Positions 25,169-40,252 of a stretch of 64,000 nucleotides of DNA are shown here, in pieces. Origin of the DNA: Janthinobacterium sp. GTDB taxonomy: Bacteria; Pseudomonadota; Gammaproteobacteria; Burkholderiales; Burkholderiaceae_D. A model generated the notes under the pieces. That model was given only the letters and a program-made list of their open reading frames with translations, searched no databases and was not told where the DNA came from. Every line of letters begins with the position of its first letter. Positions within the stretch are counted from its first letter, which is position 1. The translations under genes and the position numbers were made by a program. The stretch lies in assembly GCA_003133225.1 (NCBI GenBank), contig PKWL01000013.1:1-64000 (forward strand), written 5' to 3'.

Positions 25169-26482
<1,314 letters not shown>

Positions 26483-26485
26483 GCG

Positions 26486-26519
26486 CCAACGGTTGGGGCG
26501 GGCCGTTGGGGGAATTTTT
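26486..26519 (+). terminator. Terminator after serS
   Basis: The 7-bp stem CCAACGG / CCGTTGG with a 10-nt G-rich loop is followed by GGGAATTTTT. The T-run is offset from the stem, so efficiency is uncertain, but the position between serS and the tRNA promoter fits. Confidence 0.55.
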
Positions 26520-26562
26520 GCTGAAATCTTCTATTTTTTTCTCCGTTTTTTTTACAGCCTGC

Positions 26563-26568
26563 TATAAT
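26563..26568 (+). promoter_or_regulatory. -10 box of the tRNA-Ser promoter
   Basis: A perfect TATAAT lies 41 bp before the tRNA 5' end in a T-rich stretch. No good -35 hexamer stands at the usual distance; T-rich DNA around 26538-26550 may serve. Confidence 0.55.
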
Positions 26569-26609
26569 CTCGTTCTCGCGCAGAAAGCACAAGAAGCGAG
26601 GCAGTATCA

Positions 26610-26700
26610 GGAAAGGTGGCAGAGTGGTCGAATGCGCTGGACTCGAAATCCAGTGTACATCTTTGGTGTACCGTGAGTTCGAATCTCACCCTTTCCGCCA
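26610..26700 (+). tRNA. tRNA-Ser (anticodon CGA)
   Basis: The acceptor stem GGAAAGG pairs exactly with CCTTTCC near the 3' end. The anticodon arm is CTGGA-CTCGAAA-TCCAG, giving CGA at 26644-26646, which reads UCG. A long class II variable arm (GTACATCTTTGGTGTAC) and the T arm GTGAGTTCGAATCTCAC follow. G73 and an encoded CCA (26698-26700) complete the gene. The long variable arm and G73 are both serine identity elements. Confidence 0.97.
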
Positions 26701-27476: not shown

Positions 27477-28217
27477 ATGAAATCTATTATATTTGGCACC
27501 AGTTTTATCAAAGATATTCACTCGTGGGAAAATCGATATCAACGCTGGTTCGACTATTACCAGGACATACCAATCAATGCGGTTAAAAAAATACTGATTG
27601 ATGACGGATCACCATTTTTGCCACCGGCCAGAATCATAAATACCATTCCTCATGATGAGCCCTTATCATTGAATAACGACGAAAACCTCATCATCAGGTT
27701 CGATGACAACTTGGGGCGGCAAAGTGTGTCGGTTTATCCCGGATGGTGGCGTAGCTTCCTCCACTCTATCGAAATTGCCAAGGCGTTGGGTGTGGATAAA
27801 ATTATTCACATAGAATCTGACGCCTATATCTTGAGCCAGCGCCTGGTAGATTTTATTAATGAGACGGAATCAGGATGGCATGTCCTGTGGGCAGAACGCT
27901 ATAAGTTCCCGGAAACGGCGATTCAGATTATTTGCCGCGATCAATTTGATATATTTGAAAAATTCAAAGATAATCATCTTGAATTAGACTTCCCAGATGT
28001 TGCTGAAAGGTTGTTGCCTTTTAGTTCCATTCGCCGAGAATTTAAAGGCGATCGATACAGCGAATTCGATAGAAATAGGGGAATATTCCGCTCTCGAAAA
28101 TTTAATCGCATTCCCATTTTTCAGTGGGATTTTTTCTTGGAGCAGGTTCCAGGCGACGCCGATTTTGTCACTCAAGGCGTCAGCCGCCAAAGTTTTGAAT
28201 TTCGCCGCCACGGATAG
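27477..28217 (+). CDS. AT-rich orphan gene, possible GT-A-like protein
   Basis: 246 residues of unknown function. No signal peptide or membrane segment. The central segment VDKIIHIESDAYILSQRLVDF has a hydrophobic strand followed by E-S-D, reminiscent of the nucleotide-sugar/metal site of GT-A-fold glycosyltransferases, and the N-terminus KSIIFGTSFIKD looks like a first beta strand. That is suggestive only. Base and codon use are visibly richer in A/T than in the neighbours (many AAA, AAT, ATT, GAT codons), and an imperfect 37-bp repeat flanks the gene, so recent transfer is likely. No neighbour hints at a pathway; a cell-surface sugar role would be a guess. Confidence 0.65.
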   Translation: MKSIIFGTSFIKDIHSWENRYQRWFDYYQDIPINAVKKILIDDGSPFLPPARIINTIPHDEPLSLNNDENLIIRFDDNLGRQSVSVYPGWWRSFLHSIEIAKALGVDKIIHIESDAYILSQRLVDFINETESGWHVLWAERYKFPETAIQIICRDQFDIFEKFKDNHLELDFPDVAERLLPFSSIRREFKGDRYSEFDRNRGIFRSRKFNRIPIFQWDFFLEQVPGDADFVTQGVSRQSFEFRRHG

Positions 28218-28484: not shown

Positions 28485-29102
28485 TTAAAATTTGTAGCCT
28501 AAGTCAATCGTCCATACAGTATTGTGATTCGAAAAATTTGAATTGCCGATTTGGTAGCTGTCCACATCCGCTCGCAGAAAAACAGCATTGGGAAAAGTAT
28601 ATTGCGCGCCAATACCGTAAGTGACGTCGCTTTTATAACTATTGAGAGAAGCGGAGATGTTGGCCCCCGTCGGGGTGGCTTTTTCTTCCATATCGGCGAC
28701 GCCTAACCTGGCCAGCAAACTGAATTCATTAGCAATAGGCAATATGCCGACCGCAACCAAATTCCAGCCTTTAATGCTGACCGACGTACTAGCTCCTCCC
28801 ACCAGGCTCCCTCCGCTGGCGGCGTAGTTCTCAGTCTTTGAGCCTAAGTAACCGCCTTCGACCGCCCAATTTCTATTGACTAGGTAACCAACTTCCAACC
28901 TGCCGACGCTGGGATTGCTCATGCTGGATGAAAATCCACTTGCTCCCGCCCCGAGCAGCGCGTCGTCCACCGTTGAGCGAGCATTGCTGCCGCTCGCTTG
29001 TCCAGCCCCAACCAGTCCATACCAGCCATCCTCACTCGCAGATGCGGCGGCTGCGCCAACCAAACTAGCAATTGCCATTACCGCCAAAGTAATTTTCTTC
29101 AT
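28485..29102 (-). CDS. Outer-membrane beta-barrel protein (OmpA-like porin fold)
   Basis: 205 residues. Clear signal peptide at 1-22 (MKKITLAVMAIASLVGAAAA, then SAS). The mature part has alternating strand pattern: GWYGLVGAGQASG, VGRLEVGYLVNRNWAVEGGY, WNLVAVGILPIANEFSLLAR, and it ends WTIDLGYKF with the C-terminal Phe needed for BAM-dependent assembly. The size fits an eight-stranded barrel of the 'outer membrane beta-barrel' class. Ligand and role are unknown. The long region upstream may hold its promoter. The two copies of the 37-bp repeat lie just past its stop. Confidence 0.8.
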   Translation of the reverse strand: MKKITLAVMAIASLVGAAAASASEDGWYGLVGAGQASGSNARSTVDDALLGAGASGFSSSMSNPSVGRLEVGYLVNRNWAVEGGYLGSKTENYAASGGSLVGGASTSVSIKGWNLVAVGILPIANEFSLLARLGVADMEEKATPTGANISASLNSYKSDVTYGIGAQYTFPNAVFLRADVDSYQIGNSNFSNHNTVWTIDLGYKF

Positions 29103-29373: not shown

Positions 29374-29387
29374 TTGACGATCATCAA
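29374..29387. promoter_or_regulatory. FNR/Anr-like site
   Basis: TTGAC-GATC-ATCAA differs from the consensus TTGAT-N4-ATCAA at one base. It lies between the divergent beta-barrel gene and frdABCD. Its centre is about 118 bp upstream of the predicted start of the 29464-29492 promoter, too far for classical class II activation, so it may act from a distance, serve the minus-strand gene, or be chance. Confidence 0.35.
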
Positions 29388-30052: not shown

Positions 30053-31810
30053 ATGGAAATAATCAATACTGATGTCGCGATCATTGGCGCCGGAGGTGCC
30101 GGGTTACGCGCAGCCATCGCACTAGCCGAAGGCAACCCGAAACTGCGCATTGCCTTGATTTCTAAGGTGTACCCCATGCGCAGCCACACCTGCGCAGCAG
30201 AAGGCGGCGCGGCCGGGGTTATCAAGCCGGACGACAGCTTCGATATGCACTTCGACGATACGGTGGGCGGGGGCGACTGGCTGTCCGATCAAGACTGCGT
30301 GGAGTACTTCGTCAAGGAGGCGCCCAAGGAATTGACGCAACTAGAGCATTGGGGTTGTCCTTGGAACCGTGAAGCCGATGGCTCGGTGGCGGTGCGGCCT
30401 TTTGGCGGCATGAAAAAGCAGCGCACCTGGTTTGCGGCCGACAAGTCGGGCTTTCATATATTGCACACGCTGTTTCAGACGACGCTTCAATATCCGTCCA
30501 TTATCCGCTTTGACGAATACTACGCGTTAGACCTCTTGGTGGACGATGGCCGCTGCCAGGGCCTCACCGCCATGGAAATGCGCAGCGGTATGATCAAGCA
30601 GTTCCATGCCAAGGCGGTGATCATTGCCGGCGGCGGGGCGGGGCGTATGTTCCCGTTTAATACCAACGGTGCCATCAAAACTGGCGACGGCATGGCCATG
30701 GCCTACCGTGCGGGCGTGCCGCTCAAAGACATGGAATTTGTGCAGTACCATCCGACCGGGCTACCCAATACGGGCAGCCTCCTGACGGAGGCCTGCCGCG
30801 GCGAAGGGGGCGTGCTCCTCAACAAGAATGGACGCCGTTACTTGCAGGACTATGGTATGGGTCCGGAAACTCCGCTTGGCAAGCCGCAACTCAAGACCAT
30901 GGAATTGGGGCCGCGCGACCGCGTCAGCCAGGCATACTGGCACGAACTGCAAAAGGGCAACACGGTCACCACCCAGTGGGGGGAGTGCGTGATGCTAGAC
31001 ATGCGCCATCTGGGCGAAAAGACCATCATGGAGCGCTTGCCTTTGGTGCGCGAGTTGGCCATTGCCTACTTGGGCGTGGACATAGTCAAGGAGCCAGTAC
31101 CGATCCGTCCGGTGGTGCATTATATGATGGGCGGTATTTCTACCAATAGCCAAGCGGCCACCACGTTGCCTGGGCTGTTCGCTGCAGGCGAATGTGCCTG
31201 TGTCAGCCTCAACGGCGCCAACCGCCTTGGCTCTAACTCGCTGGTCGAATTACTGGTGTTTGGCAGGAGCGCCGCCCTGTCGGCCATGGAGTATGTGCGG
31301 GATCTGCCTTGCCCCAACACGGCCGCACTTGAGATTCGCGCGCAAAAATCCCAAGCCCGCATCCGTCAGCTCTTTACGCGCGTGGACGGCAACGAGTCCA
31401 TGTCCGGCTTGCGTAAAGAGATGACCGACACCATGGAGAAAAACGTTGGCATCTACCGCACCGAGGCCGGCTTGCAAGAAGCGGTGGATAAGATCGATCA
31501 GTTGCGTCAGCGTTACCAAAAAGTGGTGCTCAACGACAAGAGCAATGTGTTCAATACGGATCTGTTCCAGGTGCTAGAGCTGGGCTGCATGCTCGATTGC
31601 GCCTCGGCGCTGACCGTGGGCGCACTGGCCCGCAAGGAATCGCGCGGCGCCCATCAGCGCCTAGACTACGCAGAGCGCGACGACGAAACCTATCTGCGCC
31701 ACAGCATGGCACATTACCAGGGGCTGGAAATGCCACGTTTAGATTACCTTGACGTGGTGATTACCAAGTCGCCGCCTGGCGTGCGTGACTATTCGGGAGC
31801 ACACAAATGA
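30053..31810 (+). CDS. frdA: Fumarate reductase flavoprotein subunit
   Basis: Catalytic FAD subunit of a quinol:fumarate reductase / succinate:quinone oxidoreductase on the inner face of the inner membrane. 585 residues. The FAD-binding motif VAIIGAGGAGLRAAIA is near the N-terminus; MRSHTCAAEGGAAG carries the His that covalently holds FAD; VQYHPTGLP and the active-site segment RPVVHYMMGGI follow, and AGECACVSLNGANRLGSNS is the second FAD-contact motif. It resembles the E. coli FrdA type, since separate FrdC and FrdD anchors follow. The start at 30053 has GAAGGA ten bases upstream. Its stop overlaps frdB by 4 bp. Confidence 0.93.
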   Translation: MEIINTDVAIIGAGGAGLRAAIALAEGNPKLRIALISKVYPMRSHTCAAEGGAAGVIKPDDSFDMHFDDTVGGGDWLSDQDCVEYFVKEAPKELTQLEHWGCPWNREADGSVAVRPFGGMKKQRTWFAADKSGFHILHTLFQTTLQYPSIIRFDEYYALDLLVDDGRCQGLTAMEMRSGMIKQFHAKAVIIAGGGAGRMFPFNTNGAIKTGDGMAMAYRAGVPLKDMEFVQYHPTGLPNTGSLLTEACRGEGGVLLNKNGRRYLQDYGMGPETPLGKPQLKTMELGPRDRVSQAYWHELQKGNTVTTQWGECVMLDMRHLGEKTIMERLPLVRELAIAYLGVDIVKEPVPIRPVVHYMMGGISTNSQAATTLPGLFAAGECACVSLNGANRLGSNSLVELLVFGRSAALSAMEYVRDLPCPNTAALEIRAQKSQARIRQLFTRVDGNESMSGLRKEMTDTMEKNVGIYRTEAGLQEAVDKIDQLRQRYQKVVLNDKSNVFNTDLFQVLELGCMLDCASALTVGALARKESRGAHQRLDYAERDDETYLRHSMAHYQGLEMPRLDYLDVVITKSPPGVRDYSGAHK

Positions 31811-32550
31811 AACAACGCTTGGTTCAATTGGAGGTGCTGCGCTACGACCCGGAGAGCAACGTCGAACCGTATTTTCAACGCTATGAAGTCCTGTGCAAGG
31901 AAGAGTGGGTGGTGCTCGATGCGCTCAACGCGGTCAAGGAAAGCATCGATCCCACGTTGACCTACCGCTGGTCTTGCCACATGGCGGTATGCGGCAGTTG
32001 CGGCATGATGGTCAACGGCGAGCCCAAGCTGTCCTGCCACTCGTTTTTGCGCGATTACGAAGGCGTCATTCGGGTCGAGCCGCTGGCCAATTTTCCCATC
32101 GAGCGCGACCTGGCCACCGTGTCGGACGACTTTATCGATAAGCTAAAGCGGGTCAAGCCCTATCTTATCCCCAAAGAAAAGAAGAGCATCGAGCAAGGGG
32201 AATATAAGCAAACTCCAGCACAGCTGATGAAATATCGGCAGTTTTCCATGTGTATCAACTGCATGTTATGTTACGCTGCCTGCCCCGAATACGCCTTGCA
32301 ACCGAAATTTCTCGGGCCCGCGGCCATCACGCTAGCGCACCGTTACAACCAGGATTCGCGTGATGGCGGCCGCGCCGAGCGTCAGGAAGTCATTGCCACG
32401 GATGAAGGGGTGTGGGAGTGCTCCTTTGTCGGCGCCTGCTCCGAGGTGTGCCCCAAGGCCGTGGATCCATCGGGTGCGTTGCAACAGGTCAAAGTCGCCA
32501 GCACTCTGGACTGGTTCAAGGAACATTTGCTACCGGGAGCATCAAAATGA
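31807..32550 (+). CDS. frdB: Fumarate reductase iron-sulfur subunit
   Basis: Carries electrons between the quinone site and FrdA. 247 residues. The N-terminal ferredoxin domain has the [2Fe-2S] ligands in CHMAVCGSCGMMVNGE and the later Cys in KLSCHSF. The C-terminal domain has CINCMLCYAACP and CSFVGACSEVCPKAVDP, the ligands of the [4Fe-4S] and [3Fe-4S] clusters. ATGA overlaps on both sides (frdA stop, frdC start) indicate translational coupling within frdABCD. Confidence 0.95.
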   Translation: MKQRLVQLEVLRYDPESNVEPYFQRYEVLCKEEWVVLDALNAVKESIDPTLTYRWSCHMAVCGSCGMMVNGEPKLSCHSFLRDYEGVIRVEPLANFPIERDLATVSDDFIDKLKRVKPYLIPKEKKSIEQGEYKQTPAQLMKYRQFSMCINCMLCYAACPEYALQPKFLGPAAITLAHRYNQDSRDGGRAERQEVIATDEGVWECSFVGACSEVCPKAVDPSGALQQVKVASTLDWFKEHLLPGASK

Positions 32551-32939
32551 GCCGAAACCCCTACGTTCGGAAAGTTTCCAAGACCGGCTGGTACCTCACG
32601 CAGCCGCGCTACCTGCGCTACATGTCGCGCGAAGTGACTTGCATTTTTATTGGCGCTTTCGCGTTGCTCATGCTGTGCGCGCTACAACATTTGTCCGAAG
32701 GGCCCGCTGTCTACGCCTCGTTCATGGCGGCCCTTGCGGGGCCGTGGAGCGCTCTGGGGCTGTTGGTCATATTGATTTTTGCCATCCACAACGCGACCAG
32801 CTGGTTTAACGTCACACCCAAGGCCTTGCCGGTGCAAATAGGCGAAGAATTCTTGCCCGGCAAGTACATCATTGGCGTGCACTACGTCGCATGGGCCGTC
32901 GTGTCGCTGCTATTGCTGTTTTTTGCAGGAGTACTGTAA
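32547..32939 (+). CDS. frdC: Fumarate reductase membrane anchor C
   Basis: 130 residues with three transmembrane helices (about 30-50, 65-85 and 105-128). The N-terminal YVRKVSKTGWYLTQPRYLRYM and the segment IHNATSWFNVTPKALPVQIG match the FrdC family. FrdC and FrdD together bind quinone and hold FrdAB at the membrane without heme. The start at 32547 overlaps the frdB stop; the longer frame from 32412 lies inside frdB and is rejected. Confidence 0.92.
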   Translation: MSRNPYVRKVSKTGWYLTQPRYLRYMSREVTCIFIGAFALLMLCALQHLSEGPAVYASFMAALAGPWSALGLLVILIFAIHNATSWFNVTPKALPVQIGEEFLPGKYIIGVHYVAWAVVSLLLLFFAGVL

Positions 32940-32941
32940 CC

Positions 32942-33283
32942 ATGGCCAAGTCCAATAAGCCGATTTTCTGGAGTTTGTTCGCCGCAGGCGGCACCTTGGC
33001 CGCCCTGTTTGCACCGGTGCTGGTGTCGCTGTTTCTGCTGGTGGCGATCGGCCATGCGCCGGACCTGTTGAGCTACACGAATCTGCATGCGCTTGCCGCA
33101 AACTGGATTGGCAAAGCGTTCTTATTTGGTGTGATCACCTTGTTCCTATGGCATGCCGCTCACCGTTTGCGCGTGACGCTGCATGATTTCGGGATGCGCC
33201 AAGACCGGAGCATCGCCGTCGTCGTGTATTTCGTGGCGGCGGCGGGCATGGCGTTGTCGGTTTTGTACCTGTGGCGGATATGA
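32942..33283 (+). CDS. frdD: Fumarate reductase membrane anchor D
   Basis: 113 residues, three transmembrane helices. KPIFWSLFAAGGTLAALFAP and LWHAAHRLRVTLHDFGM are family hallmarks, the latter with His residues near the quinone site. It starts 2 bp after frdC. The presence of the four-subunit, heme-free anchor type separates this enzyme from the housekeeping succinate dehydrogenase sdhCDAB, which is not in this window. Confidence 0.92.
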   Translation: MAKSNKPIFWSLFAAGGTLAALFAPVLVSLFLLVAIGHAPDLLSYTNLHALAANWIGKAFLFGVITLFLWHAAHRLRVTLHDFGMRQDRSIAVVVYFVAAAGMALSVLYLWRI

Positions 33284-33454
33284 CTGGTTCATAAAGCGTG
33301 CCTAAATGCTCACTTTGGGAAAAGGACTGTAAAATGCAAGCCCGGCCGCAGGCGGCCGGCAGTCGAACGGCCCGGTCCACATTAAAAAAACGTCAATCCG
33401 CGGAAATCGCAGGGCGGATTTAACTTTATACTAACTTGAGCATCAGACGACACT

Positions 33455-34258
33455 ATGCCAGCATGGCTGTTATATACTCTCTTGTCCCCTTTTTTCGTTC
33501 TTGCCAGCACGGCCGCCTTCTTCTTCACGCTGACGCGGGGGACCTTGATCATGCGCGGCGCCTTCGGTACTTCGCGGCAAGATGCGGCTCACGTCTATTT
33601 CATTTACTCGAACATGCGCTTGATCAAGCTGGTCGATTTTCAACCGATCATTGCCGCAATTTTGCTGTTTCAGTACGATCGACTGGTATCGTCCATCACC
33701 GACGGGCTGCGCCGCACAAACTTGGACGGCAAGAAGGTGCTGATCACCTCCTGCGCCTTTGGCAATGTGATACCGCGCATCGTCGCGGCGGCCGTCGAAT
33801 CGGGAGCGCGTCGGGTGCTAATCGCCGACATCATCACCAACGAGCTGATGCACGCGCAGGGCAAATTGAACGAATTCTCTGGAAAAGTGGAATTTCTGGA
33901 AGAAGATGCCAGCGCGATGAAGCAAGAAGATGGCTCGGTTGATGTCAATGTTATTTTTTTCCTGCTGCATGAACTTCCCCATCATCTCAAGGACAAGGCA
34001 TTACGCGAGGCGGCGCGGGTGCTGGCACCGGGCGGGAAGCTTTATCTGGCTGAATTTCACCGCCCGGATGCGTGGCTGCTGCGGGCCTTAAGCTGGACTT
34101 ACTTCAAGGTTTTTGAACCCTTGGGTCTGGCGCTTTGGAATAGCCACGATCCGCTCAAGCAGATTGATGCGCTGGGGGGATTCACTTGTGAACACCATAC
34201 GGTTTTTTTCGGCAATTTCCAGATCATTGTAGCGACCAAAAATCTAACCGCTTGTTGA
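33455..34258 (+). CDS. RquA-like methyltransferase-fold protein (rhodoquinone synthesis)
   Basis: 267 residues. A hydrophobic N-terminus (about 1-30) could be a membrane anchor. A UbiE/UbiG-type class I methyltransferase fold follows, but motif I reads VLITSCAFGNVIPRI: the usual acidic residue and G-x-G-x-G are replaced, as known for RquA, which turns ubiquinone into rhodoquinone using SAM as amino donor. VNVIFFLLHELPHH, PGGKLYLAEFHRP and FEPLGLALW also recall RquA as I remember it. The gene lies 171 bp downstream of frdD on the same strand, a fitting context because rhodoquinone feeds fumarate reductase. Another divergent methyltransferase remains possible. The start ATG at 33455 has no strong ribosome binding site. 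Confidence 0.6.
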   Translation: MPAWLLYTLLSPFFVLASTAAFFFTLTRGTLIMRGAFGTSRQDAAHVYFIYSNMRLIKLVDFQPIIAAILLFQYDRLVSSITDGLRRTNLDGKKVLITSCAFGNVIPRIVAAAVESGARRVLIADIITNELMHAQGKLNEFSGKVEFLEEDASAMKQEDGSVDVNVIFFLLHELPHHLKDKALREAARVLAPGGKLYLAEFHRPDAWLLRALSWTYFKVFEPLGLALWNSHDPLKQIDALGGFTCEHHTVFFGNFQIIVATKNLTAC

Positions 34259-34449: not shown

Positions 34450-37400
34450 TTAAGAAAAATCACGACTGCGTGTATCCAACTCGCCCAAAAGATGGGATAG
34501 GTCGACCAGGCGCTTCGCGACAAGATGGCGCACCTGACTTTGGCATTGCCACACGCCATAAACACCGAGTAGAGACGCCCCCATCACTTCCTTGCGTTGC
34601 TGCTCGACTAAGCTAGGCCATACGATGACATTGACGTTCCCGGTTTCATCTTCAAGCGTCACAAATACGACACCGTTGGCTGTTGCTGGGCGTTGGCGCA
34701 CGGTGACAATTCCACAACCGCGGGCGAGCTGTCCGTCGCTAAACGAATTGAGGTCGCGCGCCGGGATAAAGCGCATCTTGCTCAGCCTGTCTCGCAGCAA
34801 TGACAGAGGATGCCGACCCAGCGTGAGACCAAGGTGTCGATAGTCTGCCAAGATATTTTCTGCTTCCGATGGCCCCGCGAGCTGGAGCGCGTCTTCGACG
34901 ATGGTAGCGAAGCGGAGAAGGCCCTTGTCGGGTACGCTTCCGACCGCTTGCCACATTGCCTGCCGGCGATTGCCTGCCAATGATTCAAGTGCATTTGCGC
35001 TTGCCAAAATGTTCAGCTGCCCACCCGTTAACTGGGCGCGTCCCGCCAAATCGTTGAGATCAGAGAATGCTTGAATCGAGCGCGCTTCCTCGATTCTCCA
35101 CGCCGCCTCCTGCTCCATTCCGCGAACGTTATTTAGGCCTAGTCGAACGGCCGATTGCCGGCCTTCGATCGGTTCCAATTTCGCTTGCCATGCGCTGACA
35201 CTGACATCGACGGGCCGCACTTCGATACCATGCCGCCGTGCGTCTTGAACTAGCGATGAAGGCGAATAAAACCCCATAGGCTGAGAATTTAGCAGCGCTG
35301 CCAAGAACGCGGCGGGTTCGTGGCATTTAAGCCAACTGGACGCGTACGCAAGCAGTGCGAAACTTGCCGCATGCGATTCGGGAAATCCATATTCGGCGAA
35401 GCCACGGATCTGGCCGATGATGGAAGTAGCAAATTCGTCGGTATAGCCACGTTCGGCCATTCCTCTCATCAGTTTTTCTTCGAACTGCTCCAAGCCGCCT
35501 TTGCGTTTCCAAGCCGCCATCGCGCGCCGCAGCTGGTCGGCTTCGCCGGCAGAGAATCCAGCGGCAACCATCGCAATTTGCATCACCTGTTCCTGGAAAA
35601 TTGGGATGCCGAGCGTACGAGAGAGTACGGCTTCCATTTCTGGGCTGGGGTAGGTGATAGGGTCAATTCCTTCCCGACGTCTCAAAAACGGATGAATCAT
35701 GCCGCCCTGAATCGGGCCGGGCCGAATAATGGCAACTTCAATTACGAGGTCGTAAAACACACGTGGCCGCAGCCGCGGCAGCATCGACATCTGGGCGCGG
35801 CTCTCAATTTGAAAGACGCCTATGGTATCGGCTTGGCAAATCATTTCATACGTCGCGGCGTCTTCGGCTGGAATGTCGCGCAACTCAAATCGTTCGCCAC
35901 GCTGTTCCGAAACAAGGTCTAGGGCCCGGCGAATACAGCTCAGCATGCCGAGTGCCAGGATGTCTATTTTGAGCAGGCCAACCGCATCAATGTCATCCTT
36001 GTCCCATTGTATGATTGACCTTTCGGCCATGCTCGCATTCTCGATGGGCACCAGGCGCGAGAGCTTCGAATGTGAGATGACAAAGCCCCCCGGGTGTTGT
36101 GACATATGCCGAGGGAAGCGCATCATTTGCTCAGCTAACTGGGCCCATTTTTTCGCGATGGGCGAGTCGGGGTCAAACCCACAGGCTTGCAGCCGTTGTT
36201 GCAGGTCCGCCTTCCCACCCCAGCTGTGACTGGCCTTGGCCACCTGGTTGACGATAGACAGGTCGACGCCGAGCGCAGTGCCGACGTCACGCAACACGCT
36301 GCGGGGGCGATAACTGATGACGACGGCAGTTAGCGCGGCGCGCATGCGTCCATATTTTCTGTAAATATATTGGATGACTTCTTCCCGCCGCTGATGTTCA
36401 AAATCGACATCGATATCCGGTGGTTCATTGCGCTCTTTTGAGATGAAGCGCTCAAATAAAAGCGTGCCGCGGGCCGGGTCCACTTCAGTGATGCCCAGGC
36501 AAAAACAAACCGCGCTATTTGCAGCAGAGCCCCGTCCTTGGCAAAGGATATGCTGGGACCGCGCAAACCGCACGATGTCATATACGGTCAGGAAATAGCT
36601 CTCGTACACCATTTCAGCAATGAGTCCCAATTCGCGCTCTAACAGCGCCTGCACCAGGTCAGGGATGCCCCCCGGATACCGCCAATGGGCGCCGATGTAG
36701 CTCTCGGAGCGCAGGTAGCTGCTGGCCGTTTCGCCTTTTGGAACAAGCTCCTGAGGATATTCGTAGCGAAGCTCATCGAGCGAAAACCGGCATAGGTCAG
36801 CAACGCGCACCGACTCGTCTAGAGCCTGTCTCGTGTACAGGTTTCCGAGCCTCACTCGCGAGCGCAAATGCTGCTCTGCGTTCGGCGCGAGTCGATATCC
36901 ACATTGGGCGACAGGGATACCATGGCGTATGGCGGTCATCGTGTCTTGTAGCGGCTTGAAGGAGCGGACATGCATGCATACGTCACCCGCGGCGACGATG
37001 GGCAAACCAAATTTTTCGGAAACTAGCGTCACAAGCGCCTTATGTTTTTCATCCCTCGCACGATAATGGAGCGTCATGGCGATGCGCGCGCGTCCAGGTG
37101 CCCATTGCAGTAGCCAAGCCGCCTGTTTTTCCAGCTCGTCATGCGTGGCGCCGTATTTCGGAGCGAGAATGAGTTGGCAGTTCGGCATCCCGCGCAGATG
37201 CGACAAATCGCCAGTGGGGTTGGCGATATCGCGCGGCCGGACGAGATAGGAGCCTTTTTCTGCGCGCGTACGCGCGAGCGTGATGAGCTCGCTCAAATTT
37301 CCATATCCGTTCTTGTTCATGGCGAGAATGAGCAGCGTAAACGCGGGACTTCCATTTTCTGGCGTCAGCAACATCTGACTGCCTATGATCAGCTTCATAC

Positions 37401-37596
37401 CCACGCTTTTTGCAGCCACGTGAGCTTTAACGACCCCAGCTAGCGTGCACTCGTCGGTGATGGCTAAGGCGTGATAGCCGAGCGTTAGAGCGCGCTGAAC
37501 AATCTGCTCAGGCGATGAGGCTCCACGCAAAAAAGTGAAGTGCGTAAGGCACTGAAGCTCGGCGTAGGCCGGTAGGATGGAAGGTATTGTTGGCAT
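34450..37596 (-). CDS. dnaE2: Error-prone DNA polymerase DnaE2 (ImuC)
   Basis: Translesion polymerase of the C family, SOS-induced. 1048 residues. The N-terminal PHP domain begins AYAELQCLTHFTFLRGAS, with AITDECTLAGVVKAH and LIIGSQM. The palm contains PPDIDVDFEHQRREEV with catalytic Asp residues. FQEQVMQIAMVAAGFSAGEA and an OB fold near the C-terminus (VVFVTLEDETGNVNVIVWP) complete the layout. It lacks the tau- and beta-binding tail of DnaE1. It is the third gene of imuA-imuB-dnaE2, 5 bp after imuB, and works with ImuB as clamp adaptor. Confidence 0.95.
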   Translation of the reverse strand: MPTIPSILPAYAELQCLTHFTFLRGASSPEQIVQRALTLGYHALAITDECTLAGVVKAHVAAKSVGMKLIIGSQMLLTPENGSPAFTLLILAMNKNGYGNLSELITLARTRAEKGSYLVRPRDIANPTGDLSHLRGMPNCQLILAPKYGATHDELEKQAAWLLQWAPGRARIAMTLHYRARDEKHKALVTLVSEKFGLPIVAAGDVCMHVRSFKPLQDTMTAIRHGIPVAQCGYRLAPNAEQHLRSRVRLGNLYTRQALDESVRVADLCRFSLDELRYEYPQELVPKGETASSYLRSESYIGAHWRYPGGIPDLVQALLERELGLIAEMVYESYFLTVYDIVRFARSQHILCQGRGSAANSAVCFCLGITEVDPARGTLLFERFISKERNEPPDIDVDFEHQRREEVIQYIYRKYGRMRAALTAVVISYRPRSVLRDVGTALGVDLSIVNQVAKASHSWGGKADLQQRLQACGFDPDSPIAKKWAQLAEQMMRFPRHMSQHPGGFVISHSKLSRLVPIENASMAERSIIQWDKDDIDAVGLLKIDILALGMLSCIRRALDLVSEQRGERFELRDIPAEDAATYEMICQADTIGVFQIESRAQMSMLPRLRPRVFYDLVIEVAIIRPGPIQGGMIHPFLRRREGIDPITYPSPEMEAVLSRTLGIPIFQEQVMQIAMVAAGFSAGEADQLRRAMAAWKRKGGLEQFEEKLMRGMAERGYTDEFATSIIGQIRGFAEYGFPESHAASFALLAYASSWLKCHEPAAFLAALLNSQPMGFYSPSSLVQDARRHGIEVRPVDVSVSAWQAKLEPIEGRQSAVRLGLNNVRGMEQEAAWRIEEARSIQAFSDLNDLAGRAQLTGGQLNILASANALESLAGNRRQAMWQAVGSVPDKGLLRFATIVEDALQLAGPSEAENILADYRHLGLTLGRHPLSLLRDRLSKMRFIPARDLNSFSDGQLARGCGIVTVRQRPATANGVVFVTLEDETGNVNVIVWPSLVEQQRKEVMGASLLGVYGVWQCQSQVRHLVAKRLVDLSHLLGELDTRSRDFS

Positions 37597-37601
37597 GATT
37601 T

Positions 37602-39074
37602 TTACGCATACAAACCGTGCAGAAACCAGCGGGCTTCTTGAGTTCGTTCAAGATAAATCCAGTAACAGCTGGCGTCGGATCCTTGAGCTACGAAATAATC
37701 CCGCGCCGCCGTTTGGTCATTCCACCATCCAGCTTCGATCCGTTCGGGGCCGGCAATCATTTTCAACGGCGAACCGTAAAATGGCCGGTCGTCTCGCATC
37801 AGCAGTGCAATCGGTTTCGGAAGGATCCAAAATGGACGTTCCAGAGTCTCTCCCTCGGCGCTTTTCTTGGCTGGTTTATCAGCCGCCGGCACCCAGGCAT
37901 TGCACACTTCAGGCCGATGGTCGGGAGAGGCGGCTGGCGTGAGAACATTCTCTGCCCCAAGCCTGGCCGTCAGAAGCTCCAACAAGCGGTAAAAATCGGC
38001 CGGCGAACCGCCGGGCTCCGGAAATAATGACTCGGTGGGGGGCCGCATCGGCACCAGCTGCCGGGCATCAAGCCGTATGCCAATGACGGGCGCGATCAGT
38101 TCTACTTTGCTCAGCCGCTCCTGGAGCAAGCGAATCAGATGCGTCTCTTTCCAAGCCGGTTCAGCTAACGCAATCTCGAGTGTTGTCGGGGGTATTGCCG
38201 AGCGCCCACGCTCATGCTCCAGTGACAGTGTAAATACCGTCACTGCCAGCTGCTGCGATACGAGCCAGCCGATCATCTGTAAAATCAGCCGTGTCGCTCC
38301 AAACATCAAGGTTTCGGCATGCTCAATCCGGTCGAAGGTTTCGATGCTCGCCGAGAACGTCGAGGGTACCTTTATCCATTCAATCAGCTCGGACAGGTTG
38401 CCATAGGCGCGGTCCAGATCTTCCAATAGCTGCTTACTGGTGCGACGCATGAGTCCTGCTCGAGGAAGCCGGCGTATTGCGCCAAAATTCTTAGCTCCTA
38501 TGCCGTTTAGCCACTCATGATGGGGCAGAGTCGTTGGCAAAAGGTGGCAAGGCAAACCGTCAAGCCGGCGCGTGAGCGTGTCCATTTTAAGTACGCGGCG
38601 GCGCAGCGGCAGTTCTTTATTGCGGGAACTCCGCGCCAATATCCATGCCCCCTTTGCCGTTGGCGCGGCACCCAATTCGGCCGTAAATCCGAGCGCCGCA
38701 ATACTGGCAGCGACGCGTCGGCAAATTGCCAATGGCCCTTCGAACAATTGCAGGCTTGCACTTACGTCCATCAGAATGCTGAAGTCATCGGAAAAGGCCA
38801 CTTCGGGTGTGTATTGCAACAACGCCATCGCGATGGCAGCCAGCGCCAACTGCTCTTTTTTTGGGTTCCGCTCCAGCATCTCAGTAGCCGGCGAAATTGC
38901 GGACACGCCGCCCGCACGCATGCCGGACCTGACTCCACTAAATGATGCCTCGCGAGATGCAACGAGCACCTGATCGAGATGCATAACCGCGTAGCAAGCG
39001 CCAGGTTCAGACCAAGAGGGACGTAGTGTCTCGAGCGGTAACAAAGGCAGGTGTATGCTCAACAACAGTTGCAT
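37602..39074 (-). CDS. imuB: ImuB, inactive Y-family polymerase homolog
   Basis: 490 residues from MQLLLSIHLPLLPLETL. It has the Y-family fold, but where active polymerases carry the first catalytic Asp (V-D-x-D) the sequence reads SIHLPLLPLE, and the second site (ILMDVSASLQLFEGP) lacks the adjacent acidic pair, as is standard for ImuB. In known systems it is a scaffold linking DnaE2 to the beta clamp and to ImuA. The start at 39074 overlaps the end of imuA by 68 bp; the frame back to 39125 has no family similarity. Regulated from the LexA box upstream of imuA. Confidence 0.93.
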   Translation of the reverse strand: MQLLLSIHLPLLPLETLRPSWSEPGACYAVMHLDQVLVASREASFSGVRSGMRAGGVSAISPATEMLERNPKKEQLALAAIAMALLQYTPEVAFSDDFSILMDVSASLQLFEGPLAICRRVAASIAALGFTAELGAAPTAKGAWILARSSRNKELPLRRRVLKMDTLTRRLDGLPCHLLPTTLPHHEWLNGIGAKNFGAIRRLPRAGLMRRTSKQLLEDLDRAYGNLSELIEWIKVPSTFSASIETFDRIEHAETLMFGATRLILQMIGWLVSQQLAVTVFTLSLEHERGRSAIPPTTLEIALAEPAWKETHLIRLLQERLSKVELIAPVIGIRLDARQLVPMRPPTESLFPEPGGSPADFYRLLELLTARLGAENVLTPAASPDHRPEVCNAWVPAADKPAKKSAEGETLERPFWILPKPIALLMRDDRPFYGSPLKMIAGPERIEAGWWNDQTAARDYFVAQGSDASCYWIYLERTQEARWFLHGLYA

Positions 39075-39747
39075 TTTTTTGGTCCAATAAGTGTCGCCCG
39101 GCAGGCATGTCAGCGAGCGGCACAAAAAGTGGGGTATCGGAACGCGGGCCGCGGCGCTTAATTATTTCGACAGAGACGCCCCCTAGTGCTGGCCGCAGCG
39201 CCAACCGGAGCGGTGCCGGGGACGAATCGCTGGCACAAGCTAGTGGCCGCATGAGCCAGAACCATGTATCTGTCGTTTGAGCAGCCAGATTTAGTCGCCG
39301 CAACGACTCTGCGCGCATATTGGATTGCCACAAGATGATAACGCCGCAGCTGCCATTCTTGAGTATCTGCTCGGTTGCCCATAGCGCGTCACCGGTATTT
39401 TTCGTTCGTATCCATAACAGCTGGCTAGTATCGATCCCCCATGTTTGGCAAGCCATCGCATGGGGGATATAGGGCGGCTGCACGAGCGTGATTCTCTGAT
39501 TTTGTGACAGCTTAGTTAGTACTGGCTTGAGCAGTTGCATCTCGCCTATGCCGCCTTGCTGTAAAAGGAGCTCAACGAGTGTTGACCTCGGCCACCCCTT
39601 ATTTGGCAGTTCACCATTTAGCGCGCAGTGCCCGGTCGAGCAAGTTGTTGCTTGGGACACAGCCAGCTCGCTGGCGCGCCAAACCTCCGGAAACGGCAGC
39701 AGGAGCGAGCGAGCAGAATCGTTTAATGTGGGGGGTGGTGCCAACAT
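39007..39747 (-). CDS. imuA: ImuA, RecA/SulA-like protein of the SOS mutasome
   Basis: 246 residues from MLAPPPTLND. A degenerate RecA-like fold: LPNKGWPRSTLVELLLQQ stands where RecA has its P-loop and is incomplete (no GKT/S). RITLVQPPYIPHAMACQTWG and SLRRLNLAAQTTDTWFWLMR are typical of the ImuA family ('translesion DNA synthesis-associated protein ImuA'). The start at 39747 lies 42 bp from the LexA box; the open frame back to 39897 would run through the operator and is rejected. First gene of the imuA-imuB-dnaE2 operon. Confidence 0.9.
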   Translation of the reverse strand: MLAPPPTLNDSARSLLLPFPEVWRASELAVSQATTCSTGHCALNGELPNKGWPRSTLVELLLQQGGIGEMQLLKPVLTKLSQNQRITLVQPPYIPHAMACQTWGIDTSQLLWIRTKNTGDALWATEQILKNGSCGVIILWQSNMRAESLRRLNLAAQTTDTWFWLMRPLACASDSSPAPLRLALRPALGGVSVEIIKRRGPRSDTPLFVPLADMPAGRHLLDQKNATVVEHTPAFVTARDTTSLLV

Positions 39748-39788
39748 GGTTTCTTCCACGATTATGGGTGGCAGGCGGAGTGAAATAC

Positions 39789-39808
39789 TACTGTATAAAA
39801 AAACAGTA
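39789..39808 (-). promoter_or_regulatory. LexA (SOS) operator of imuA-imuB-dnaE2
   Basis: TACTGTATAAAAAAACAGTA matches the consensus TACTGT-N8-ACAGTA exactly in its palindromic arms (CTGT at 39791-39794, ACAG at 39803-39806). It lies 42 bp upstream of the imuA ATG, where a repressor would block the promoter. This supports DNA-damage control of the cassette by LexA of the gammaproteobacterial/betaproteobacterial type. Confidence 0.92.
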
Positions 39809-40252
39809 TATGCATGAAGGAGGAAGTCGTCAAGAATCAATCTGCCCGCAACCGGACATGCTTGGAAGTGCGGCGTCACCCGGTCGTCTTCAGGCATTGG
39901 TGTCGCGTGCCAGCACTTTGCTGGTCAGACTTTGCCATGGTCGGGCTGGGCGCCGCGGGGCCACTGCCACGCCGTGGCACCGCGCATGCCTGCCTCGGGC
40001 AGCCTGCCGGAGGCCAACGCCAAAGGCGCTTTGACAACGCCCGCCCCGCGCCCAATGCGCGCGATGTTTTTCCCGGGGCACATCTTGACTCGAAATACGC
40101 GCTCTACGCCCCTACCTGTGGCACCGCCCGCTCGCCGGCCGGTAACGCGGACAAATTAGCCGCACTGTTTGAGTAATGTCAAAGCCCAGTCTATGGTGAG
40201 GTGATATTGTTTTGGCCTATAGTTTGTTGTAAGACAGGAGGGAAGAGACAGG
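39809..40252. other. Intergenic region, no gene assigned
   Basis: About 440 bp. Three plus-strand frames and one minus-strand frame stay open, which is expected in GC-rich DNA; none has a ribosome binding site or recognisable motif. The tail of one plus frame (ending ADKLAALFE just before 40176) looks mildly protein-like and could be the end of a decayed gene. The AGGAGGG near 40236 belongs to the next gene. Confidence 0.25.

Follow-up and report, generated by a model that had tools for sequence, protein, structure and literature searches.

Rhodoquinone is an electron carrier of low-oxygen conditions with which a ubiquinone-making cell can respire fumarate without oxygen. Its presence is predicted from the gene rquA, which was reportedly named in a 2012 paper; multiple rquA genes are said to be the subject of a study in ciliates. 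The RquA protein of Rhodospirillum rubrum transfers the amino group of S-adenosylmethionine (SAM) to ubiquinone with Mn2+ (PMC9814641), and a non-canonical SAM motif I is described for RquA (PMC5953543, PMC9814641). That rquA can lie near genes for complex II is already known, and their linkage is not a new observation (PMC5953543). The subject here is an rquA-like gene located directly after a fumarate reductase operon, frdABCD, in a 64,000-nucleotide stretch of Janthinobacterium sp. (assembly GCA_003133225.1, contig PKWL01000013.1, positions 1 to 64,000), called the window below. Its product is on sequence criteria a divergent relative of RquA in a distinct membrane-anchored clade, named clade 1, and not simply an RquA ortholog, since other genomes carry clade 1 together with canonical RquA. 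It is probably a membrane-anchored RquA-type enzyme that would convert ubiquinone to rhodoquinone in the service of the FrdABCD complex encoded upstream.

The operon resembles that of Escherichia coli in its four subunits and their usual order, with FrdA, FrdB and FrdD above their NCBIfam cut-offs. It differs by a divergent FrdC, by the putative quinone-modifying gene that comes next and by the lack of a MenD or MqnC match in the genome. The clade-1 protein shares with RquA the best-matching family, the altered motif I, twelve conserved positions and, in one type of frd operon, the slot after frdD. It differs from RquA by its lower family score, its amino-terminal membrane helix, its position in a clade of its own and its usual coexistence with canonical RquA.

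Sequence, fold and phylogeny of clade 1

The best NCBIfam family of the window protein is RquA (NF038261, E 1e-34, 120.2 bits), whose score is more than twice that of the next family, of UbiE type (54 bits); the best UbiE equivalog reaches 46.3 of 216 bits, below its cut-off. Clade-1 members of a 59-genome set and of an 89-genome genus set score 95-123 bits with the RquA model, whose curated cut-off is 175. In the 59 genomes the split is clean, canonical RquA scoring 257-321 bits and clade 1 95-122. The sequence-only reading, an earlier note on this DNA, had assigned the protein to RquA from its motifs. RquA is indeed the nearest family, but the protein is not a member by the curated threshold (120 against 175 bits) and falls in the separate membrane-anchored clade. 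The same reading was right that motif I, SCAFGNVIPRI, is altered in the RquA manner: alignment with canonical-type RquA shows SCAFG in place of the AGGTG of UbiE-type proteins.

An AlphaFold model of the window protein (pLDDT 83.7, pTM 0.81) features an amino-terminal helix followed by a catalytic domain with the class I SAM fold. Ranked by E-value, the Foldseek matches are headed by yeast Coq5 with SAM, an enzyme that methylates the quinone ring. This fold is common to the UbiE/Coq5 proteins, but UbiE has a glycine-rich motif I and lacks the RquA-specific residues of clade 1. A hydropathy peak at the amino terminus is found in 86/86 clade-1 sequences and in 0/109 canonical-type RquA sequences (21 from a 245-genome sample, 60 from the 59-genome set and a 399-genome sample of the order, all above the cut-off, and 28 from phylum-level similarity matches, the first and last sets being picked by similarity). 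Three more clade-1 rows outside the count of 86 also have a hydrophobic amino-terminal helix.

Twelve positions are common to clade 1 and RquA (Y51, F168, L170, H172, E173, P175, H202, E221, P222, W228, F251 and Q256). They are kept in 84-86 of the 86 clade-1 sequences, in 101-109 of the 109 canonical-type ones and in 0-1 of 13 UbiE-type proteins. Four of them, H172, E173, H202 and E221, may coordinate a metal. The ribose/SAM-binding aspartate D125, the likely counterpart of R. rubrum D118 (this numbering was mapped by motif, without the R. rubrum sequence), is present in 86/86 clade-1, 109/109 canonical-type and 13/13 UbiE-type sequences and hence is not specific to RquA. A second aspartate, residue 151, would correspond to R. 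rubrum D143; it is Asp in the window protein and in 103/109 canonical-type sequences, the other 6/109 having Asn. Near the conserved sites clade 1 shows fixed differences from RquA, for example at residues 130 (Glu against Gln) and 102 (Phe against Tyr).

A tree of 81 rows, in which RquA is anchored by the NCBIfam model and R. rubrum RquA is not a row, recovers clade 1 as one group (support 99/94) and joins canonical and divergent RquA without it (91/88). The placement check proposed in the sequence-only reading accordingly has a divided outcome. In the best tree clade 1 falls outside RquA, but approximately unbiased (AU) tests do not reject nesting: clade 1 with divergent RquA gives p 0.221, and clade 1 with one canonical subgroup gives p-AU 0.655 at a likelihood slightly above that of the free tree, while its union with another canonical subgroup is rejected (p 0.0225). 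These tests weaken a first impression that clade 1 clearly sits outside RquA. By its sequence clade 1 would be either the sister group of RquA or a deep, fast branch inside it.

Distribution of clade 1 and its link to fumarate reductase

The 59 clade-1 genomes comprise all 9 found in a 245-genome sample of the same family and 50 of 80 named loci, with named and longer contigs favoured; many are metagenome-assembled genomes (MAGs). In the family sample 31 genomes match the window protein at 1e-15. Besides the window's own, the matches form two sets with 56-67% identity (clade 1) and 27-35% identity, and RquA is matched by every one of eleven sequences drawn from the two sets (best 3.1e-91). At the level of the order, RquA above the cut-off occurs in 35/399 genomes and clade 1 in 2/399: the genome of the window and another, in which RquA is present as well. 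A 398-genome phylum sample yielded no further clade-1 member, its best full-length match besides the window's own being 32% identical.

Clade 1 is the only RquA-like protein in 17/59 genomes, the window's included (no other RquA match at 1e-20), and some of these are near-complete: G000 (98%), G195 (100%) and G019 (98%). Canonical RquA above the cut-off accompanies it in 41/59, which is why clade 1 is not taken for a plain RquA ortholog, and one genome has a likely canonical RquA fragment at a contig end. Among 89 genomes of the genus of Rhodoferax antarcticus, 50 have both proteins, 10 clade 1 only, 6 RquA only and 23 neither, partial hits being counted (odds ratio 19, Fisher; the Fisher tests here and below ignore relatedness). 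R. ferrireducens makes rhodoquinone (PMC6529003). Clade 1 and canonical RquA are both present in a MAG of this species (L072, G264) and in R. antarcticus ANT.BR (L074, G266), so these genomes cannot separate the role of one from that of the other. In genus g23 three of five clade-1 genomes have two clade-1 copies together with canonical RquA (G128: L204, L205; G162: L206, L207; G215), and G215 combines its two clade-1 copies with three of canonical RquA.

In the family sample FrdC is above its cut-off in 8 genomes and below it in 6 more. RquA or clade 1 is present in 8/8 of the former and in 23/237 of the others (Fisher p 2.8e-8). Seven of the eight have RquA above the cut-off; the eighth, and the sole one without, is the window's genome. 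In the 59-genome set FrdC passes the cut-off in 23, that is in 5/17 genomes with clade 1 only and 18/41 with RquA as well. Neither an RquA-like match nor FrdC above the cut-off is found in the 18 remaining genomes from the window's genus in the family sample. This points to a joint gain of the frd/clade-1 unit in the window's genome; loss in the others is also possible.

The gene order of the window recurs at two loci, L037 (a Polaromonas MAG) and L099 (a Burkholderiales MAG), where frdABCD is followed on the same strand by the clade-1 gene after gaps of 86 and 39 bp; the other genes around the window's operon, as far as searched for, are all missing from the flanks retrieved for these loci. 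The repeated order, strand and close spacing show that the adjacency of frd and clade 1 is more than chance. The frd operon type of the window occurs in 7/59 clade-1 genomes, and the seven operons form one clade (support 100/100). Three of them, those of the window, L037 and L099, continue after frdD with clade 1, three others (L194, L195, L196) with canonical rquA (313-320 bits), and the one of L197 with neither kind. The frd tree leaves the order within this clade unsettled, so that the number of clade-1/rquA exchanges is not readable from it.

A general linkage of clade 1 to frd was expected and is not seen in the 80 named loci, of which 3 have the two close together. The linkage of frd and rquA that the sequence-only reading proposed to look for in related genomes is thus borne out in L037, L099 and the shared slot, not as a rule. 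L069 combines clade 1 with canonical rquA and an frd operon of another type in convergent orientation. Where the frd operon is of the other type, canonical rquA immediately precedes frdA in the same orientation at L198, L199, L200 and L202, and at L201 it follows frdD. A gene for a DcuA/DcuB C4-dicarboxylate transporter starts about 20 bp after the clade-1 gene in G128; such a gene is found beside clade 1 in 1/91 loci searched (87 around clade-1 genes and 4 around frd).

Elsewhere clade 1 resides in stable housekeeping contexts, with PriA in 24/80 and SerS in 15/80 named loci. The serS gene stands just upstream of clade 1 in its 15 loci, and trxB/ftsK/lolA lie downstream in 8/80. In the window, serS (25184-26700) and a tRNA-Ser are about 7 kb upstream of the clade-1 gene, and an ancestral serS-linked position of the gene is possible. 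In the second context (among L063-L110, for example L074) priA follows clade 1 on the minus strand in its 24 loci and hemE, also on the minus strand, in 23/80, with a Mem_trans-family transporter gene upstream in 22/80. The names lolA, rarA, ImuA and AEC type are presumptive, given in part by gene position.

Organization of the window locus

The coordinates given in the sequence-only reading for frdABCD, and the gap that separates it from the next gene, agree with the open reading frames (ORFs) and the family cut-offs, that of FrdC being Pfam's (Table 1). By family match the segment 30053-33283 is an operon for a four-subunit quinol:fumarate reductase, which the FrdC/FrdD family predicts to be heme-free.

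Table 1. Features of the frd operon and of the clade-1 gene (positions in the window)
Feature	Position	Strand	Description	Evidence
frdA	30053-31810	+	flavoprotein subunit, 585 amino acids	PRK09231 961.5 bits (cut-off 854), TIGR01176 933.6 bits (cut-off 932.7)
frdB	31807-32550	+	iron-sulfur subunit, 247 amino acids	NCBIfam PRK12385 370.4 bits (cut-off 333)
frdC	32547-32939	+	membrane anchor subunit, 130 amino acids	Pfam PF02300 110.9 bits (cut-off 24.2)
frdD	32942-33283	+	membrane anchor subunit, 113 amino acids	PRK05470.1-1 89.7 bits (cut-off 60); Pfam PF02313
frdD-to-clade-1 gap	33284-33454	+	171 bp	RNA fold z-score 0.20, nothing notable
Clade-1 RquA-like gene	33455-34258	+	267 amino acids, proposed rhodoquinone synthase	NF038261 match, trees, common residues
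N-terminal membrane helix	33461-33565	+	residues 3-37	AlphaFold helix, hydropathy peak
Altered SAM motif I, SCAFGNVIPRI	33749-33781	+	residues 99-109	alignment with canonical-type RquA
FFLLHELP	33956-33979	+	residues 168-175	includes RquA-specific H172, E173, P175

FrdA passes two NCBIfam equivalog cut-offs and has the Pfam domains FAD_binding_2 and Succ_DH_flav_C. The frdC start overlaps the frdB stop (ATGA). FrdC is below its NCBIfam cut-off (71.3 against 143 bits) and passes in Pfam only, with a score obtained from ORF start 32544, one codon early. A pattern scan finds a weak terminator-like site at 33237-33259, within the end of frdD; the promoter and terminator scans and the RNA fold of the gap gave nothing useful.

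Upstream of frd lies an outer-membrane beta-barrel gene (28485-29102, minus strand), and farther upstream the seryl-tRNA synthetase gene and tRNA-Ser, the latter being the sole result of tRNA and Rfam scans of the window. A 246-amino-acid ORF (27477-28217) that has no Pfam match at 0.001 separates tRNA-Ser from the outer-membrane protein gene. Convergent genes coding for DNA polymerase III alpha-type and ImuB-like proteins (34450-39897) are found downstream of the clade-1 gene. In L100 and L111, relatives of window segment 39007-39897 and of ImuB lie upstream of the clade-1 gene, possibly by coincidence. The G+C content from frd to clade 1 is not unusual for the window, and the PLSDB plasmids gave no match at 1e-10. 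Control of frd by FNR was considered in view of a one-mismatch FNR-like site some 670 bp before frdA (29374-29387), and rejected: two such sites per 64 kb is the chance level.

Predicted function and alternatives

MenD and MqnC represent the menaquinone routes. No MenD match is found in the 59 clade-1 genomes, the window's included (control genomes positive in 7/14), and MqnC above the cut-off occurs in 0/59, the three weaker matches being outside the window's genome. These absences make rhodoquinone the likely donor for FrdABCD, on gene content. UbiV is present in 54/59 clade-1 genomes, the window's included, which fits the report of RquA in 84 genomes, 73 of them with the oxygen-independent ubiquinone pathway (PMC11707229).

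Rhodoquinone synthase is the simplest reading of the clade-1 protein because the RquA-specific residues are kept, the predicted anchor places it in the membrane where ubiquinone is, and the gene takes the slot of rquA after frd; the window's genome, with a UbiV match and no MenD, MqnC or canonical RquA match, points the same way. Under low oxygen, ubiquinone would come from the oxygen-independent (UbiUV) route and the clade-1 enzyme, presumably co-transcribed with frdABCD, would convert it to rhodoquinone by a reaction like that of R. rubrum RquA (PMC9814641). A dehydrogenase such as complex I may then form rhodoquinol, and FrdABCD would re-oxidise it while reducing fumarate to succinate. Complex I is established as the rhodoquinol-forming dehydrogenase in rhodoquinone systems. 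The rhodoquinone-based fumarate branch proposed in the sequence-only reading keeps its support from the frd families, the lack of menaquinone-route matches and the slot shared with rquA, and loses that of a general linkage.

Several points weigh against a rhodoquinone synthase. The window protein lies under the curated RquA cut-off (120.2 against 175 bits), its clade has a long stem branch, and the median identity of the clade-1 protein is 24.6% to canonical-type RquA against 20.2% to three UbiE/UbiG proteins. Nor is the fold match specific, as 1287 PDB chains reach E 0.001 or better. Residue 151, Asp in the window protein, is Asn in 81/86 clade-1 sequences. Six divergent RquA sequences lack H202 and Q256, which means that some of the twelve positions do not hold across the RquA family as a whole, and a divergent rquA from Desulfobacterota is reported to have given no rhodoquinone in E. 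coli (PMC13386864). As to context, 36/59 clade-1 genomes have no FrdC above the cut-off, frd is found at 10 kb or less from clade 1 in only 3 of the 80 named loci (some of these 80 on short contigs), the window-type operon was sought only among clade-1 genomes, and the three cases of clade 1 in the slot may share one origin. The UbiV count is for clade-1 genomes only, and MAG incompleteness can hide genes. In the 41 genomes that also have canonical RquA above the cut-off, a second equivalent enzyme looks redundant.

This coexistence, strong within the Rhodoferax genus, and the fixed differences at residues 130 and 102 would also suit a protein that partners RquA in another rhodoquinone step, for example by removing, further modifying or balancing the quinone. 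Such a role is unlikely in view of the 17 genomes without another RquA match, near-complete ones among them, and of the three operons where clade 1 occupies the place that rquA has in their relatives. The same clade-specific changes in an otherwise RquA-like active site, and a coexistence that could mean different products, leave a somewhat smaller chance that clade 1 makes another, undescribed low-potential quinone from ubiquinone to feed FrdABCD; against it, interchange in one slot most simply means the same product. An ordinary methyltransferase of quinones (UbiE/UbiG type) or of other substrates, placed beside frd by accident, is the least probable origin of the pattern. The class I methyltransferase fold and the many clade-1 genes located among housekeeping genes (priA/hemE, serS/trxB/ftsK) agree with it, but motif I is altered as in RquA, the RquA-specific residues are kept, a UbiE-like protein (L003) is encoded elsewhere in the genome, and the frd adjacency recurs in three genomes.

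The reading of the clade-1 protein as a rhodoquinone synthase reaches beyond the window. With somewhat less assurance than for the window gene itself, clade 1 appears to be a second family of membrane-anchored low-potential-quinone synthases, giving RquA-independent rhodoquinone or another SAM-derived amino-quinone, which would extend quinone-based fumarate respiration to organisms, this one among them, that are scored as RquA-negative at the curated cut-off. No description of clade 1 as a separate group, of its amino-terminal membrane helix, of its occurrence together with RquA or of the clade-1/rquA interchange was found in the titles, abstracts and passages covered, most subscription papers and all supplements lying outside.

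If clade 1 stands in for rquA, the curated RquA cut-off would underestimate the capacity for rhodoquinone in some Burkholderiales, and clade 1 may be a second bacterial way to rhodoquinone. The genomes with both proteins raise the question of why two are kept. The natural interchange of clade 1 and rquA in one operon type offers matched pairs for the study of an unusual amino transfer from SAM.

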